This document shows, piece by piece, positions 1 through 9,068 of a stretch of 11,224 bases of DNA. The translations under genes were made by a program, and so were the position numbers. The notes below the pieces were generated by a model, which saw only the letters and a program-made list of their open reading frames with translations, was not told the origin of the DNA and made no database searches. Origin of the DNA: Promethearchaeota archaeon (GTDB lineage: Archaea > Asgardarchaeota > Lokiarchaeia > Sigynarchaeales > SOKP01); the NCBI GenBank assembly GCA_030605085.1, contig JAUWBH010000190.1, positions 1-11,224 on the forward strand, given 5' to 3'. Numbering within the stretch: the stretch's first letter is position 1; every line of letters begins with the position of its first letter.

Positions 1-51
1 TTCTTTTAATTTATTACATTGTATTAAAACGTTAGTATCCAATAACCACAT
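1..51 (-). CDS. vapC: VapC-type PIN-domain toxin, N-terminal 17 codons only (cut by window edge)
   Basis: The first 17 codons of a minus-strand gene are visible and read MWLLDTNVLIQCNKLKE. The LLDTNVLI stretch is the hallmark first strand of PIN-domain ribonucleases, and its Asp is the first metal-binding acidic residue. The ATG shares one base with the TAA stop of the upstream antitoxin gene (TAATG), so the two should be translationally coupled. PIN-domain VapC toxins cleave tRNA or rRNA and are neutralised by the VapB partner encoded just upstream. The frame is open to the window edge; the remaining acidic catalytic residues lie outside and cannot be checked. The family call rests on the N-terminal motif plus the operon arrangement. 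Confidence 0.8.
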   Translation of the reverse strand, partial: MWLLDTNVLIQCNKLKE

Positions 52-344
52 TACTCATCTGCACTTCTTTCTAATTTATATAATCGATTCATTCTTTCCT
101 CCTCCATTTTTTTCGCTTTTTGGTAAAATAAAATTTCCTCACGCTCATCTAATTCATTAATTTGCTTTAGTAATTCCGGACCTAATCGCTCTCTGAAGGC
201 TTTAATGGGTAAGACATCAATTTCCTCCACTTCTTTAAGGTAATTTACGATAGATTGACGCAAAATTTCAGTCCATTTAATTTCTGGATGGTCTTTCATT
301 TTTTTATGAAGATCATCATCAACACTAAAAGTAATATTGGTCAT
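51..344 (-). CDS. vapB: VapB-like ribbon-helix-helix antitoxin
   Basis: This is a 97-residue protein. Residues 1-40 have the ribbon-helix-helix pattern: a short beta strand (NITFSVDD), then a helix, a turn (EIKWTEILRQ) and a second helix (SIVNYLKEVEE). Such proteins dimerise through the strand and bind operator DNA. Residues 45-97 are charged and predicted helical, as expected for the tail that wraps the toxin. The stop codon overlaps the ATG of the PIN toxin by one base, the classic antitoxin-first order. The ATG at 344 is preceded by inverted and direct repeats suited to autoregulation and by no evident Shine-Dalgarno. Family assignment is by motif and context, so the exact VapB subfamily is unknown. 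Confidence 0.8.
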   Translation of the reverse strand: MTNITFSVDDDLHKKMKDHPEIKWTEILRQSIVNYLKEVEEIDVLPIKAFRERLGPELLKQINELDEREEILFYQKAKKMEEERMNRLYKLERSADE

Positions 345-459: not shown

Positions 460-627
460 ATGAATGATTCAAACAGAATTTTGGACCTTTTTAAAGAGAA
501 AGAAGCATTCAACGAAAAGTATTTTATGCCGTTTCTTGTTTGTGGAGATCCTAATATTGAGCAGTTTATATCATTGGTTAAAAAGATCGAACCATATATT
601 GATATCCTTGAAAAGGTCTTAATTTAA
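460..627 (+). pseudogene. trpA: trpA 5' fragment (tryptophan synthase alpha subunit, truncated)
   Basis: A 55-codon ORF begins with NRILDLFKEKEAF and continues FMPFLVCGDPN, followed by a helix and PYIDILE. This is the order of the N-terminus of the tryptophan synthase alpha subunit: first helix, the strand with the (A/C)GDP motif, then the strand bearing the catalytic Glu in an (I/V)E(L/I)GIPFSDP motif. Here the frame reaches the DILE that normally leads into LGIPFSDP and then reads KVLI and stops. About 200 residues, including the catalytic Asp and the phosphate-binding loops, are missing, and no other frame downstream restores them. The next gene, on the other strand, ends 3 bases away, so the cut is probably a rearrangement junction. 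No other trp gene is in the window. Confidence 0.75.
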
Positions 628-629
628 AT

Positions 630-902
630 TTAAGATCCATAAATACCAACATTCTCTTCAACAAAATCGATAATAAAACACTGATTTTTCTGTCTTATTT
701 TATGTAATTTTTCTTGTAAATTTTTTAGCGAAGAATCCACAGCTATAATTTGTTCATTATGTACTGCAATAAATTTTCCCCCAAATAATTTTTGTAATTT
801 CAATTCATTTGGTAGAGGTATTGGTAATTCTTCATTGCGCTTATCTTCTCGTGGTAAGGGTATTTTTTCTTTTTCTTCTGATGTTTTACCCATAATTATC
901 AC
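630..902 (-). CDS. DUF5678-family small protein
   Basis: This is a 90-residue protein with a GTG start at 902; an in-frame ATG at 893 is an equally good start and sits nearer the expected transcription start. Residues 1-35 are charged and proline-containing, probably disordered. Residues 37-85 match the DUF5678 pattern: KLFGGKFIAV (Gly-Lys strand), HNEQIIAV (second strand), a helix (SLKNLQEKLHKIR) and a final strand (CFIIDFVEE). Function is unknown, but in archaea DUF5678 proteins are often encoded near small retropepsin-like aspartyl proteases. The fusion gene at 1389 carries a similar domain joined to such a protease, supporting a functional link. The gene diverges from the UPF0175 gene. 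Family call by pattern; moderate confidence. Confidence 0.65.
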   Translation of the reverse strand: MIIMGKTSEEKEKIPLPREDKRNEELPIPLPNELKLQKLFGGKFIAVHNEQIIAVDSSLKNLQEKLHKIRQKNQCFIIDFVEENVGIYGS

Positions 903-969: not shown

Positions 970-1194
970 TTGTTATCGAATATTGAAGAAATTTTTAAAT
1001 TTATGAAGTTAGAATTTGCTTTAAAAGAATATCTCAATGATAAAGTATCACTAGGTAAAGCAGCTGATATCGCAGGTATCTCCATTTGGGAGATGTTAGA
1101 TGAATTGAAAAAAAGGAATATTACTTTAAATTACAAAATTTCGGAAGCAGAATTAGAACTAAATTTTTTTTTAAAGAAATATAATAAATTATGA
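970..1194 (+). CDS. UPF0175-family antitoxin
   Basis: This is a 74-residue protein if started at TTG 970; an ATG at 1003 would give 63 residues. The core ALKEYLNDKVSLGKAADIAG (residues 17-36), followed by ISIWEMLDELKKRNITLNY, is the UPF0175 signature: a helix ending in Y.....SLGKAA..AG, then a helix-turn-helix with W-x-M/F and a basic (R/K)-x-I. The family is a predicted antitoxin, normally encoded just upstream of a PIN-like DUF3368 toxin. Here the stop overlaps an ATG (ATGA at 1191), the expected coupling, but the downstream frame closes after seven codons, so the antitoxin looks orphaned. The N-terminus before residue 12 is weakly supported. Confidence 0.75.
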   Translation: MLSNIEEIFKFMKLEFALKEYLNDKVSLGKAADIAGISIWEMLDELKKRNITLNYKISEAELELNFFLKKYNKL

Positions 1195-1388: not shown

Positions 1389-2159
1389 ATGACTACAATT
1401 AATTTTAAACTTGATGATAAGAAGAAAAAGGAAATTGAAGCGATTACAAAAATTAAGGGATATAAGAGCATCAGTGATTTTATTCGTCAGGCTATTGATG
1501 AAAAAATGAATCTCCAAAGAAAGATTGATGATTTTTTAGCTAAAAATCCCCCGATGGATAAAGAAAAAATAAAAATTCCTGATTTCATTCCAGATGGAAA
1601 ATATTTAGGGATTTCGCGAAATTCAATTGTAGCAATAGGAGATAGTTCTGATGAAGTATTACAAATATTAGCTGAAAAATTTCCTCATTCTGCCTCAGGG
1701 GTAATTCGAAAGGGAGAAAAAAAAGAACCAATGGAATATATGTTTTCAATTTTTTCTTTAGATGAGTTAGATTGTTATCATCAATATAAATATGAGGATA
1801 ATCATTACCCGATACTTTCTTTTTCAATTTATTTGAACGGAAAAAAAAGAACTTTATCTGGATTAATTGATACCGGGGCTACTATTTCAGCAATTAATGA
1901 GAAAGTGTTAAAAGATTATAATCTCACTCCAATTAAAAAGAAAAAGATATCAACTGCTAACAGCATTATTGAAGTTCCAATATATAAAAGTACCTTTCAA
2001 TATAAAGATGTATCAATTGAACTAGAATTTATATCAACTAATATTAGAGGAGATTTTTCAATACAAGCATTACTTGGAAAAAATTTTATTGATAAATTTA
2101 AAATTCTTTTATTAGGTAAAGAAAAAATATTCTGCATTCAATCTTACAATGAGAATTAA
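1389..2159 (+). CDS. RHH - DUF5678-like - retropepsin-like aspartyl protease fusion
   Basis: This is a 256-residue three-part protein. Residues 1-45 form a ribbon-helix-helix DNA-binding unit (strand TTINFKLDD, helix, KSISDFIRQAIDEKM). Residues 66-108 resemble DUF5678 (DGKYLGISRNSIVAIG, then helix DEVLQILAEKFP). Residues 143-250 form a single retropepsin-like domain: LSFSIYLNG, the catalytic LIDTGATISAI with active-site Asp161-Thr-Gly-Ala, a flap-like strand pair near 187-197, and ALLGKNFIDKFKI (227-239), equivalent to the closing (I/L)LG..(F/L) motif of clan AA proteases. One DTGA triad per chain means it must dimerise to be active, and an RHH domain is itself an obligate dimer. The substrate is unknown. 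Start chosen at the ATG that begins the RHH strand, with a TATA box at leaderless spacing. Single-chain use of these three domains is unusual in my knowledge, but I cannot search for precedents. Confidence 0.75.
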   Translation: MTTINFKLDDKKKKEIEAITKIKGYKSISDFIRQAIDEKMNLQRKIDDFLAKNPPMDKEKIKIPDFIPDGKYLGISRNSIVAIGDSSDEVLQILAEKFPHSASGVIRKGEKKEPMEYMFSIFSLDELDCYHQYKYEDNHYPILSFSIYLNGKKRTLSGLIDTGATISAINEKVLKDYNLTPIKKKKISTANSIIEVPIYKSTFQYKDVSIELEFISTNIRGDFSIQALLGKNFIDKFKILLLGKEKIFCIQSYNEN

Positions 2160-2364: not shown

Positions 2365-2436
2365 CTTATTGTAGCTTAGCGGGAGAGCAATTGACTAGTA
2401 ATCAATCGGTCGAGGGTTCAAATCCCTCCAAAGGCT
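2365..2436 (+). tRNA. tRNA-Thr-like gene, anticodon AGT, broken acceptor stem (probable pseudo-tRNA)
   Basis: The D-stem GCTT/GAGC (2374-2377/2385-2388) carries a GG-containing loop. The anticodon stem ATTGA/TCAAT closes the 7-base loop CTAGTAA with anticodon AGT (2397-2399). The variable loop has five bases. The T-stem GAGGG/CCCTC (2412-2416/2424-2428) has the TTCAAAT loop. The 3' acceptor strand CAAAGGC with discriminator T fits archaeal tRNA-Thr, where U73 is usual. The 5' strand should be GCCTTTG but reads CTTATTG, giving two mismatches (C-C and A-A) and two G-T pairs. A34 is also very unusual for an archaeal Thr tRNA, which normally has GGT. Most likely this is a decayed copy of a GGT isoacceptor. 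Confidence 0.6.
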
Positions 2437-5417: not shown

Positions 5418-6386
5418 ATGGAATTAACTACGATATTATTCGTTTTTATTGTATTATCAATCCTTATTTCGTTTGCAATAGGAGGAAACGACGAGACTTT
5501 TGCAACTATATATGGAGCGAAGACATTAACTCTAAAAGAAATACTCATTTTTACGACAATTTTCGCAATATTAGGCGCATTTTTACTTGGACGAGCAGTT
5601 AGTGATACAGTTGGGAACAATATCCTATACATCGAAATTTCTATTGCTGTTGTAATAACGATACTAATATCAACCGCTATTTGGTTAATTGTATCTTCAA
5701 TTTTGGGGCTCCCAATCTCTACAACTCACGCGACTATAGGTTCCATAATAGGACTTGGGGTTTTTTTAGGCGGTTGGAACAGCGGATTAAACTGGGAAAT
5801 CATATTAAGAATGAGTATATGGTGGATCCTTTCACCTATCATTGGCTTTGTAGTGACATACATAGCATACAAGCTCCTTCATCGGTTTGTTATTAATAAA
5901 CTTAATGGATTTCAAGATTTCGAAAGGACAGAAAAGGTTTTTGCCTATATTCTCTTAGCTACAATTTGTTTGACGGCGTTTGCAAGAGCGGGAAACGATT
6001 CCTCCAACGCAGTGGGAATTGTTGTAGGGATTGGAGGGATTAATATAGATATATTATTATTTCTAACCGGGATAAGTTTATCTGGTGGCATAATTGTGTT
6101 AGGAAGAGGAGTTATTAAAAGCGTAGGTAAGATTACCGAACTACATCCTAGTAGCGCATTTGCTTCACAAGTTCCTGCGGCGGTAATTTTGTTTGCTGGC
6201 ACATGGCAAGGTATTCCACTATCTGGATCTCATATGATAGTCGCTTCTTTAGTTGGATTAGCTAAAGCTAGACACGCTCCAATGGAAAAAGGTTTATGGA
6301 AAATTATTTTAATATGGATTTTAACTTTCCCAATGGCAGCATTGTTGTCAATCATACTCTATTTTCCAATAAGTATATTTTTTTAA
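5418..6386 (+). CDS. PiT-family inorganic phosphate permease
   Basis: This is a 322-residue polytopic membrane protein with about ten hydrophobic segments. The two inverted halves show the PiT hallmarks: first GGNDETFATIYGAK (22-35) and GLPISTTHATIG (97-108), then RAGNDSSNAVG (190-200) and GIPLSGSHMIVASLVG (265-280). The Asn-Asp pairs of the G.ND..N motif and the (P)-(I/L)-S-(T/G)-(T/S)-H loops line the cation and phosphate path. PiT transporters bring in inorganic phosphate, often as a metal-phosphate complex, with Na+ or H+. The first motif has F-A where most members have N-A (GGNDETFAT), a small deviation also consistent with archaeal members. Co-transcribed with the DUF47 gene, with its own ribosome-binding site. 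Confidence 0.92.
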   Translation: MELTTILFVFIVLSILISFAIGGNDETFATIYGAKTLTLKEILIFTTIFAILGAFLLGRAVSDTVGNNILYIEISIAVVITILISTAIWLIVSSILGLPISTTHATIGSIIGLGVFLGGWNSGLNWEIILRMSIWWILSPIIGFVVTYIAYKLLHRFVINKLNGFQDFERTEKVFAYILLATICLTAFARAGNDSSNAVGIVVGIGGINIDILLFLTGISLSGGIIVLGRGVIKSVGKITELHPSSAFASQVPAAVILFAGTWQGIPLSGSHMIVASLVGLAKARHAPMEKGLWKIILIWILTFPMAALLSIILYFPISIFF

Positions 6387-6402
6387 TAAATTTCCTTCCT
6401 TC

Positions 6403-6419
6403 TTTTTTTTTAATTTTTT
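6403..6419 (+). terminator. T-tract terminator of the DUF47-PiT operon
   Basis: A run of nine T (6403-6411), then AA and a further six T, begins 17 bases after the PiT stop. Oligo-T tracts at gene ends are the usual termination signal in archaea. It lies between the complete PiT gene and the relic PiT tail. Confidence 0.5.
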
Positions 6420-6523
6420 ATTGCCTGGGATTTTTTCTGTTAATTTGGATTGCAACATTTCCCGTAGCCGTAGCGGCAATTTTATCGATTATAATATATT
6501 TTCCCGTAAGTTCATTCTTCTAG
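6419..6523 (+). pseudogene. C-terminal relic of a second PiT permease
   Basis: The frame ending at TAG 6521-6523 reads FFLLIWIATFPVAVAAILSI then IIYFPVSSFF. The last 30 residues of the complete PiT just upstream read KIILIWILTFPMAALLSI then ILYFPISIFF, so the two tails align almost end to end. DNA identity is clearly lower than protein similarity (different codons throughout), so it is not a recent duplication or an assembly stutter. No start, upstream helices or signature motifs of a second copy remain. The region just before 6419 is the T-tract after the first PiT. It is probably what remains of a tandem second PiT gene after deletion. Confidence 0.7.
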
Positions 6524-8138: not shown

Positions 8139-9068
8139 TTAGGATTTAAAACAATTATAAAGAACTTCAAAAACTGGTTTTATTGTCTCATACCATTTTT
8201 CATCAATATCTATACTTTTTATTTCTTTTTGGATATGAATATAATTTCTAAAATCTCTGACATGCGATTGTACAATTTTCCATCTCATTTTTTCTCCAAA
8301 AATATCATTTTTAATTGCAGCTTCAGCATAATTGGCAAAATTTTTACCTAGCTTATTATTAAAAGGTTCAGGATCTATATTATGATCGTCACAATATCTT
8401 ATTAACAAGAATTCTAATATCGCACCCATTAAAATCATAGAAAATTTAAAATTATGTTCATACTCAAATCTCAAAAGTGTTCTTACATTATTCAAAAAAA
8501 TCCGTCTTTCTTTCTCATCCTTTAAATATAAACTTAATTTTCCCAATGTAATATCATATTTTTCGTTTTCTAATTTACTTTTATATTCCTTATAATTCTC
8601 ACTTTTAACAAAACTAAATTCCGCATCAATTGATTTTGGATCTTTAATTACCATTGAAATGTATTCTTTAATTTTTCCATTTACACCCTCTATAATATCT
8701 ACAAATTCAGTTTTTTTAATATAAAGAGTTAAAGAAGTACCCCATATATTTGTTGAATTGTATGCAGAAATCGCATTTTTCGAATTATCGATTACTTCTT
8801 TAATTGGTTTAGTAAAATAATCTGTCTTTTCGTATTTTCTCTCTCCTATAAAAGTTGAAGGATGTTTAAGTACATTTATTTTTATATTTCTATAATGAGG
8901 AATAGATTCATTATCTTCATATCCATTCAATTCCCAATTAATCCAAAAAATTACATTTTCATGACTTTTGTTTTTAGCTATTTCACGTACAATTTGAAGA
9001 TTTTTAATTAAATATTCCTTACGATTTATGGTCTTTTTAACATTTTTAATCAATTCCTTGATATTCAT
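8139..9068 (-). CDS. AbiTii-domain protein with HEPN-like C-terminus (candidate abortive-infection gene)
   Basis: This is a 309-residue protein. Residues 17-65 match the AbiTii domain: a helix (EYLIKNLQIVREIAKNKSHE), then VIFWINWELNGY (39-50) and a short loop to IPHYR (56-60). This W..WELNGY...(L/I)P.YR pattern is the family signature. AbiTii domains occur in phage-resistance proteins, but their biochemical role is unknown. Residues 190-305 are helical and HEPN-like: RTLLRFEYEHNFKFSMILMG then AILEFLL, and near the end VRDFRNYIHIQ with Arg271 and His278 in an R-x6-H spacing, within the RX4-6H rule of HEPN ribonucleases. This suggests an RNA-cleaving effector with a sensing N-terminus. A TATA box at 9101-9110 gives a short leader, and a perfect hairpin ends the gene. 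The AbiTii call is fairly secure; HEPN is inferred. Confidence 0.65.
   Translation of the reverse strand: MNIKELIKNVKKTINRKEYLIKNLQIVREIAKNKSHENVIFWINWELNGYEDNESIPHYRNIKINVLKHPSTFIGERKYEKTDYFTKPIKEVIDNSKNAISAYNSTNIWGTSLTLYIKKTEFVDIIEGVNGKIKEYISMVIKDPKSIDAEFSFVKSENYKEYKSKLENEKYDITLGKLSLYLKDEKERRIFLNNVRTLLRFEYEHNFKFSMILMGAILEFLLIRYCDDHNIDPEPFNNKLGKNFANYAEAAIKNDIFGEKMRWKIVQSHVRDFRNYIHIQKEIKSIDIDEKWYETIKPVFEVLYNCFKS

Follow-up and report, generated by a model that had tools for sequence, protein, structure and literature searches.

Ribbon-helix-helix, DUF5678-like and retropepsin domains on one chain in Asgard archaea, and a collinear two-gene counterpart

Results

The window analysed here is a stretch of 11,224 nucleotides from a Promethearchaeota archaeon. 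At positions 1389..2159 of its forward strand lies an open reading frame of 256 amino acids that joins three domains: a ribbon-helix-helix (RHH) domain at residues 4-38 (1398..1502), a DUF5678-like middle part at about residues 61-112 (1569..1724) and a retropepsin domain at about residues 128-256 (1770..2156). This arrangement had been proposed in an earlier reading of the DNA (the sequence-only reading), and profile searches confirmed it. RHH_1 (PF01402, E 3.4e-4) scores 20.9 bits against a cut-off of 20.5, and a clan AA aspartic protease at residues 147-234 is likewise above the Pfam cut-off (PF13975, PF13650). For the middle part, PF18929 (DUF5678) matches 10/18 members of the fused family but not the window protein itself at E 1; a profile comparison of the middle unit with Asgard DUF5678 (hhalign) gave Prob 97 and E 8.7e-11. 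The RHH profile matched 16/18 family members. Both retropepsin motifs are present: the D-T/S-G motif as DTGA at residues 161-164 (1869..1880), and the hydrophobic-hydrophobic-Gly motif as LLG at 228-230, within LLGKNF at 228-233 (2070..2087).

The AlphaFold2 monomer, computed from an alignment of 18 rows (mean pLDDT 78.6, pTM 0.62), has two predicted helices (10-23, 28-52), followed by a strand-strand-helix-strand unit (72-107); from residue 128 onwards it is rich in beta structure. In the RHH segment two helices are predicted and the RHH strand is not formed. With Foldseek and VIA-align, the C-terminal part falls among the retropepsins, in agreement with the beta fold expected from the motif at residue 161. 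Since retropepsins occupy the PDB hit lists of the full model, the structure search bears on the protease part only. The least confident stretch of the model (residues 118-122) coincides with the joint at about residues 118-127 (1740..1769), where the parts are two genes elsewhere.

The same three-domain order recurs in other genomes, as the sequence-only reading had suggested might be searched for. Matches to the fused gene were found in 24/227 Asgard genomes, with intact full-length genes in 17 places, ten at 52-62% identity and seven at 23-32%. Among these, L026 was counted as intact because the stop reported within its match sits at the C-terminal end. Stops interrupt one near-full copy (L022); the remaining matches are fragments or weak partial ones. 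In the protein database, we found 109 relatives of the window protein, 104 of which have at least 200 residues; 6/7 named organisms among them are Asgard archaea and the other is 'Candidatus Deferrimicrobium sp.'. The whole-gene dN/dS is 0.11-0.33 in 8/9 pairs (0.16 for the window gene and L009), and the ninth pair was not computable. Single-domain values are noisy for very close pairs (0.71 for the protease of L014-L017, 0.79 for DUF5678 of L018-L019). The fused genes are under purifying selection, and the three-domain architecture is real and conserved.

Conservation across the 109 aligned relatives is strong at the active site and in the RHH strand: counting the rows with a letter at the position, D161 is kept in 107/107, T162 in 106/107, G230 in 103/105 and N5 of the RHH strand in 98/98. 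A tree of 104 rows, from which the five relatives shorter than 200 residues had been dropped, splits the family into clades of 58 and 46, and the active-site label needs two changes on it. In the clade of the window protein, D-T/S-G is present in 58/58 proteins, always as DTGA or DSGA. The glycine of DTG matters for catalysis, and it is lost in 45/46 proteins of the sister clade, which have DTA or DTT; the remaining one has DTGA. This counts against a working protease in every member. The protease part of L027-L029, which belong to the DTA/DTT clade, is still constrained (dN/dS 0.18), and further positions differ between the clades, for example K231 versus R. The protease part of the DTA/DTT clade may have changed into a non-cutting peptide sensor or dimer clamp.

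Elsewhere in the Asgard genomes, the two halves are encoded by two adjacent genes. The DUF5678 profile gave 40 rows in 25/222 Asgard genomes and a match in 0/14 control genomes, a comparison that does not measure the spread outside Asgard. A single-domain retropepsin lies directly downstream on the same strand in 21 of the 40 rows. The others comprise one fused gene, one broken fused copy, two nucleotidyltransferases, two rows cut by contig ends, two with a retropepsin-like ORF recognized by eye only (G001:C211, truncated, and G160:C339) and 11 without a retropepsin behind, which count against the explanation favoured below. Among the 21 downstream retropepsins, 11 had been seeds of the protease profile, each with its own PF13650 or TIGR03698 match; the weak scorers are G179:C7 (E 9.6e-3) and G120:C39 and G110:C61 (about 7e-4). 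D-T/S-G is kept in 21/21 aligned two-gene retropepsins.

Starting from the retropepsin side, there were 53 TIGR03698 rows, of which seven in long proteins were set aside; the ORF could be delimited for 44 of the 46 others. A DUF5678 ORF is found directly upstream of 25/44 single-domain retropepsins; the first profile round alone detected 23 of them. The training set had included six of the 25, and a seventh is nearly identical to one of those six. DUF5678 matches occurred in 0/680 shuffled upstream proteins and in 2/1501 background ORFs, both from the fused family. In 24/25 pairs, the genes overlap or sit 1 base apart, and 11 overlap by exactly 4 bases; larger overlaps are upper limits, since starts were set at the first possible codon. 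The 19/44 retropepsins without an upstream DUF5678 also count against the favoured explanation. Two genomes (G085 and G088) carry both forms. On plasmids, one RHH-DUF5678 protein and one retropepsin used as queries gave no match. Taken together, the genomic pattern of the two-gene form is strong.

The two forms are homologous and collinear by profile comparison. Residues 1-108 of the fusion align with the RHH-DUF5678 protein (E 6.6e-9) and residues 127-255 with the separate retropepsin (E 8.1e-15); the RHH parts alone reach only Prob 67.5 and E 5e-5. As the RHH-DUF5678 profile matches at about positions 1-109 of 127 in eight fused genes, RHH and DUF5678 are in register between the forms. This profile detected 55 proteins in the database, with 10/11 named organisms being Asgard and the other again 'Candidatus Deferrimicrobium sp.'; among the genomes it matched 49/222, in many over the RHH segment alone.

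By alignment, most upstream proteins of the two-gene form begin with an RHH-like segment, with single-protein Pfam matches below the cut-off. Among the ten scanned, three matched FitA-like RHH (E 0.0024-0.0042) and three RHH_6 (E 3.7e-4 to 0.035), the best of which, L120, has no DUF5678 match; L178 has a very weak MazE match only (E 0.0044). A different DNA-binding part occurs in L149:690-1588 (G008, C274), where an archaeal histone fold (E 3.9e-13) is followed by DUF5678 (E 3.5e-6), with a 4-base overlap between this gene and that of the retropepsin. Two further upstream proteins may be winged-helix proteins, L167 (MarR_2, E 0.21) and L031 (by eye only), and one retropepsin has an upstream ArsR-type HTH protein without DUF5678. 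These matches suggest that DUF5678 and the protease are the constant parts, combined with an exchangeable DNA-binding part that can be RHH-like, a histone fold or perhaps a winged helix.

Among 17 upstream regions of fused genes, a clear inverted repeat was found in one only, that of L029, where an 11-base repeat surrounds the presumed promoter (0/300 shuffles). L027 has a shorter form of it, which is not significant (p 0.21), and the repeat of L021 (p 0.033) is about what chance would give in 17 tests. The L029/L027 repeat is a possible candidate operator. The window's own upstream region has no significant inverted repeat, which counts against the favoured explanation.

Within the window, several genes resemble those of toxin-antitoxin or defence systems: a VapB-like gene (51-344, reverse strand, E 1.3e-3), a UPF0175 gene (970-1194, forward strand, E 1.4e-14) and an AbiTii-like gene (8139-9068, reverse strand; Pfam E 4.3e-7, PADLOC E 9.6e-9). 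The stand-alone DUF5678 gene that the sequence-only reading had pointed out is present (630..902); however, a role as partner of the fused gene is not supported, as it lies on the reverse strand and is not a recurrent neighbour. We also considered this gene as a decayed pair and rejected this, since inspection of three frames by eye revealed no retropepsin remnant behind it.

No widely conserved neighbour of the fused gene was found in 21 loci (the window and 20 others). Iron-sulphur-type proteins, which form a loose cluster and are present in 7/21 loci, come nearest to a recurrent neighbour; such a protein adjoins the fused gene or its remains in L042, L044, L045, L050 and L053, which include three close relatives, and the L053 member is a 4Fe-4S protein. 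Genes of toxin-antitoxin type near fused genes include HepT-nucleotidyltransferase (L042, and by similarity L044 and L045), DUF433 (L046, and by similarity L047), ParE-type (L049) and PIN (L051, L052). As the scan covered 20 chosen neighbours and has no background rate, these are a hint only. Between L042 and L044, the fused gene and the HepT-nucleotidyltransferase pair are adjacent in opposite order, with otherwise shared surroundings.

Discussion

Our interpretation builds on the observation of three domains on one chain, a conserved fusion, a two-gene counterpart and collinear homology of both forms. We tentatively propose, with a confidence that falls somewhat short of even, that the window protein represents, on one chain, an Asgard module in which a DNA-binding DUF5678 protein and a retropepsin make up a protease-linked gene switch. 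RHH domains form dimers by themselves and retropepsins are active as dimers; thus, the chain would be able to assemble a protease dimer on DNA. The RHH would pair two chains there and bring together two single-domain retropepsins, as the active site needs, whereas DUF5678 would serve as an adaptor that docks the protease on the regulator in the two-gene form. The protein would regulate the DNA to which it is bound, and on a signal the assembled protease would cleave its own chain or a partner, whereupon the DNA would be released. Such a logic would resemble that of ImmR/ImmA and of LexA, but with an aspartic protease. The sequence-only reading suggested that dimerisation of the RHH might keep the protease dimer together or anchor it on DNA, which fits this predicted anatomy; its hypothesis of a repressor that cleaves itself, or of an antitoxin that carries a protease, becomes more concrete with the two-gene form.

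Several known systems share parts of this arrangement. The partner domains known at the ends of RHH regulators and antitoxins are of other kinds; the window protein resembles CopG/RHH_1 regulators in its RHH_1 match above the cut-off at residues 4-38. We found no RHH regulator with a protease in the open-access literature, outside which most subscription journals lie. TIGR03698 (clan_AA_DTGF, NCBIfam) is matched by 6/6 scanned two-gene retropepsins, which are homologous to the fused protease part; the window protein, whose protease is fused to RHH and DUF5678, has no match to it at E 0.1. The top Foldseek match of the window model is APRc/RC1339 of Rickettsia, a single-domain retropepsin fold for which self-processing and dimerisation are reported; it has predicted transmembrane helices, and no DNA-binding domain is described in the portion of the article available (PMC4140852).

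According to the accessible part of the report (PMC8960796), ImmA cleaves ImmR, which ends repression. This likewise pairs a DNA-binding protein with a protease; however, ImmA is a metallopeptidase and ImmR a helix-turn-helix repressor, neither of which is found in the window protein, where an aspartic protease with putative cleavage is joined to RHH. RimB, as far as the text at hand describes it (PMC11957791), is a retropepsin-like protease of bacteria that acts together with a partner and also occurs fused to it; that partner is the ligase RimK, whereas the partner of the fused window protease is a DNA-binding part. Because ImmA cuts ImmR and RimB occurs both alone and fused, we favour by analogy a regulator whose protease is built in or docked, and place a toxin-antitoxin function second.

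In the latter case, which we regard as somewhat unlikely, the retropepsin would be a harmful effector, the DNA-binding DUF5678 part an antitoxin and autoregulator, and the fusion a self-restrained single chain. Type II toxin-antitoxin pairs consist of small overlapping genes with the regulator first and an exchangeable DNA-binding domain, and the two-gene relatives share this order, though the likeness is one of layout only. Retropepsins are also present in PADLOC candidate defence systems, and the toxin-antitoxin-type genes near fused genes point the same way, without a background rate. The window gene, however, encodes one chain with no retropepsin partner gene, and no separate antitoxin accompanies the fused gene. 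Furthermore, loss of the active-site glycine across an entire clade, with constraint on the remaining sequence, would be odd for a toxin.

That same loss would be expected if the retropepsin fold only bound a peptide or clamped the dimer and the protein were an ordinary ligand-responsive RHH regulator. The continued constraint on the protease part of the DTA/DTT clade agrees with this, but the window's own clade keeps D-T/S-G throughout, and as an account of the family we consider it unlikely. Less probable still, and by a clear step, is the reading as a DNA-tethered protease directed at other DNA-bound proteins and not at itself: DNA-binding and chromatin-type domains are exchanged around a constant DUF5678 and protease, but none of the neighbours is widespread enough to point to a substrate. 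A retroelement origin is not favoured, as the matches of the protease part are to cellular enzymes, namely single-domain retropepsins of the TIGR03698 type. A pattern scan of viral contigs and phages found no relative, a weak result, as the same kind of scan missed the genome relatives that the whole-genome search detected.

Returning to the protease-linked switch, a broader version is conceivable that we hold with more reserve. The fused and two-gene forms might belong to an undescribed Asgard regulatory or toxin-antitoxin-like class, whose DNA-binding member (RHH, histone fold or winged helix) would use its DUF5678 part to dock a dimeric retropepsin, and this protease would cleave the very regulator to which it is docked. 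The window protein would be the fused form, and in one lineage the protease would have become a non-cutting sensor.

As far as searched, the architecture is undescribed, within an open-access literature that covers few subscription journals. In this literature, we found no relevant report on aspartic or clan AA proteases with antitoxins or ribbon-helix-helix proteins, on DUF5678, or on Asgard together with Ddi1. DUF5678 here gains a context, and a group of prokaryotic single-domain retropepsins gains a likely partner. If the proposal is true, aspartic proteases would be added to the few proteases through which DNA-binding regulators are switched. The Asgard are the archaeal group closest to eukaryotes, and the archaeal histone fold tied to the same protease partner in L149 is a lead of its own. 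The module is testable with small soluble proteins.

Further features of the window

Downstream of the fused gene lies a tRNA-Thr (2365-2435, forward strand), to which ARAGORN assigns the anticodon AGT, which would be unusual for an archaeon. A short ORF at 460-627 (forward strand) resembles the N-terminus of the tryptophan synthase alpha chain (PF00290, E 3.6e-4, below the cut-off) and is probably a gene scrap. The phosphate transporter of the window shares 72% identity with proteins from two lokiarchaeal genomes. By eye, the end of the ORF that follows it (6296-6523, forward strand) repeats a C-terminal stretch of this transporter, and this ORF is probably a duplicated scrap.
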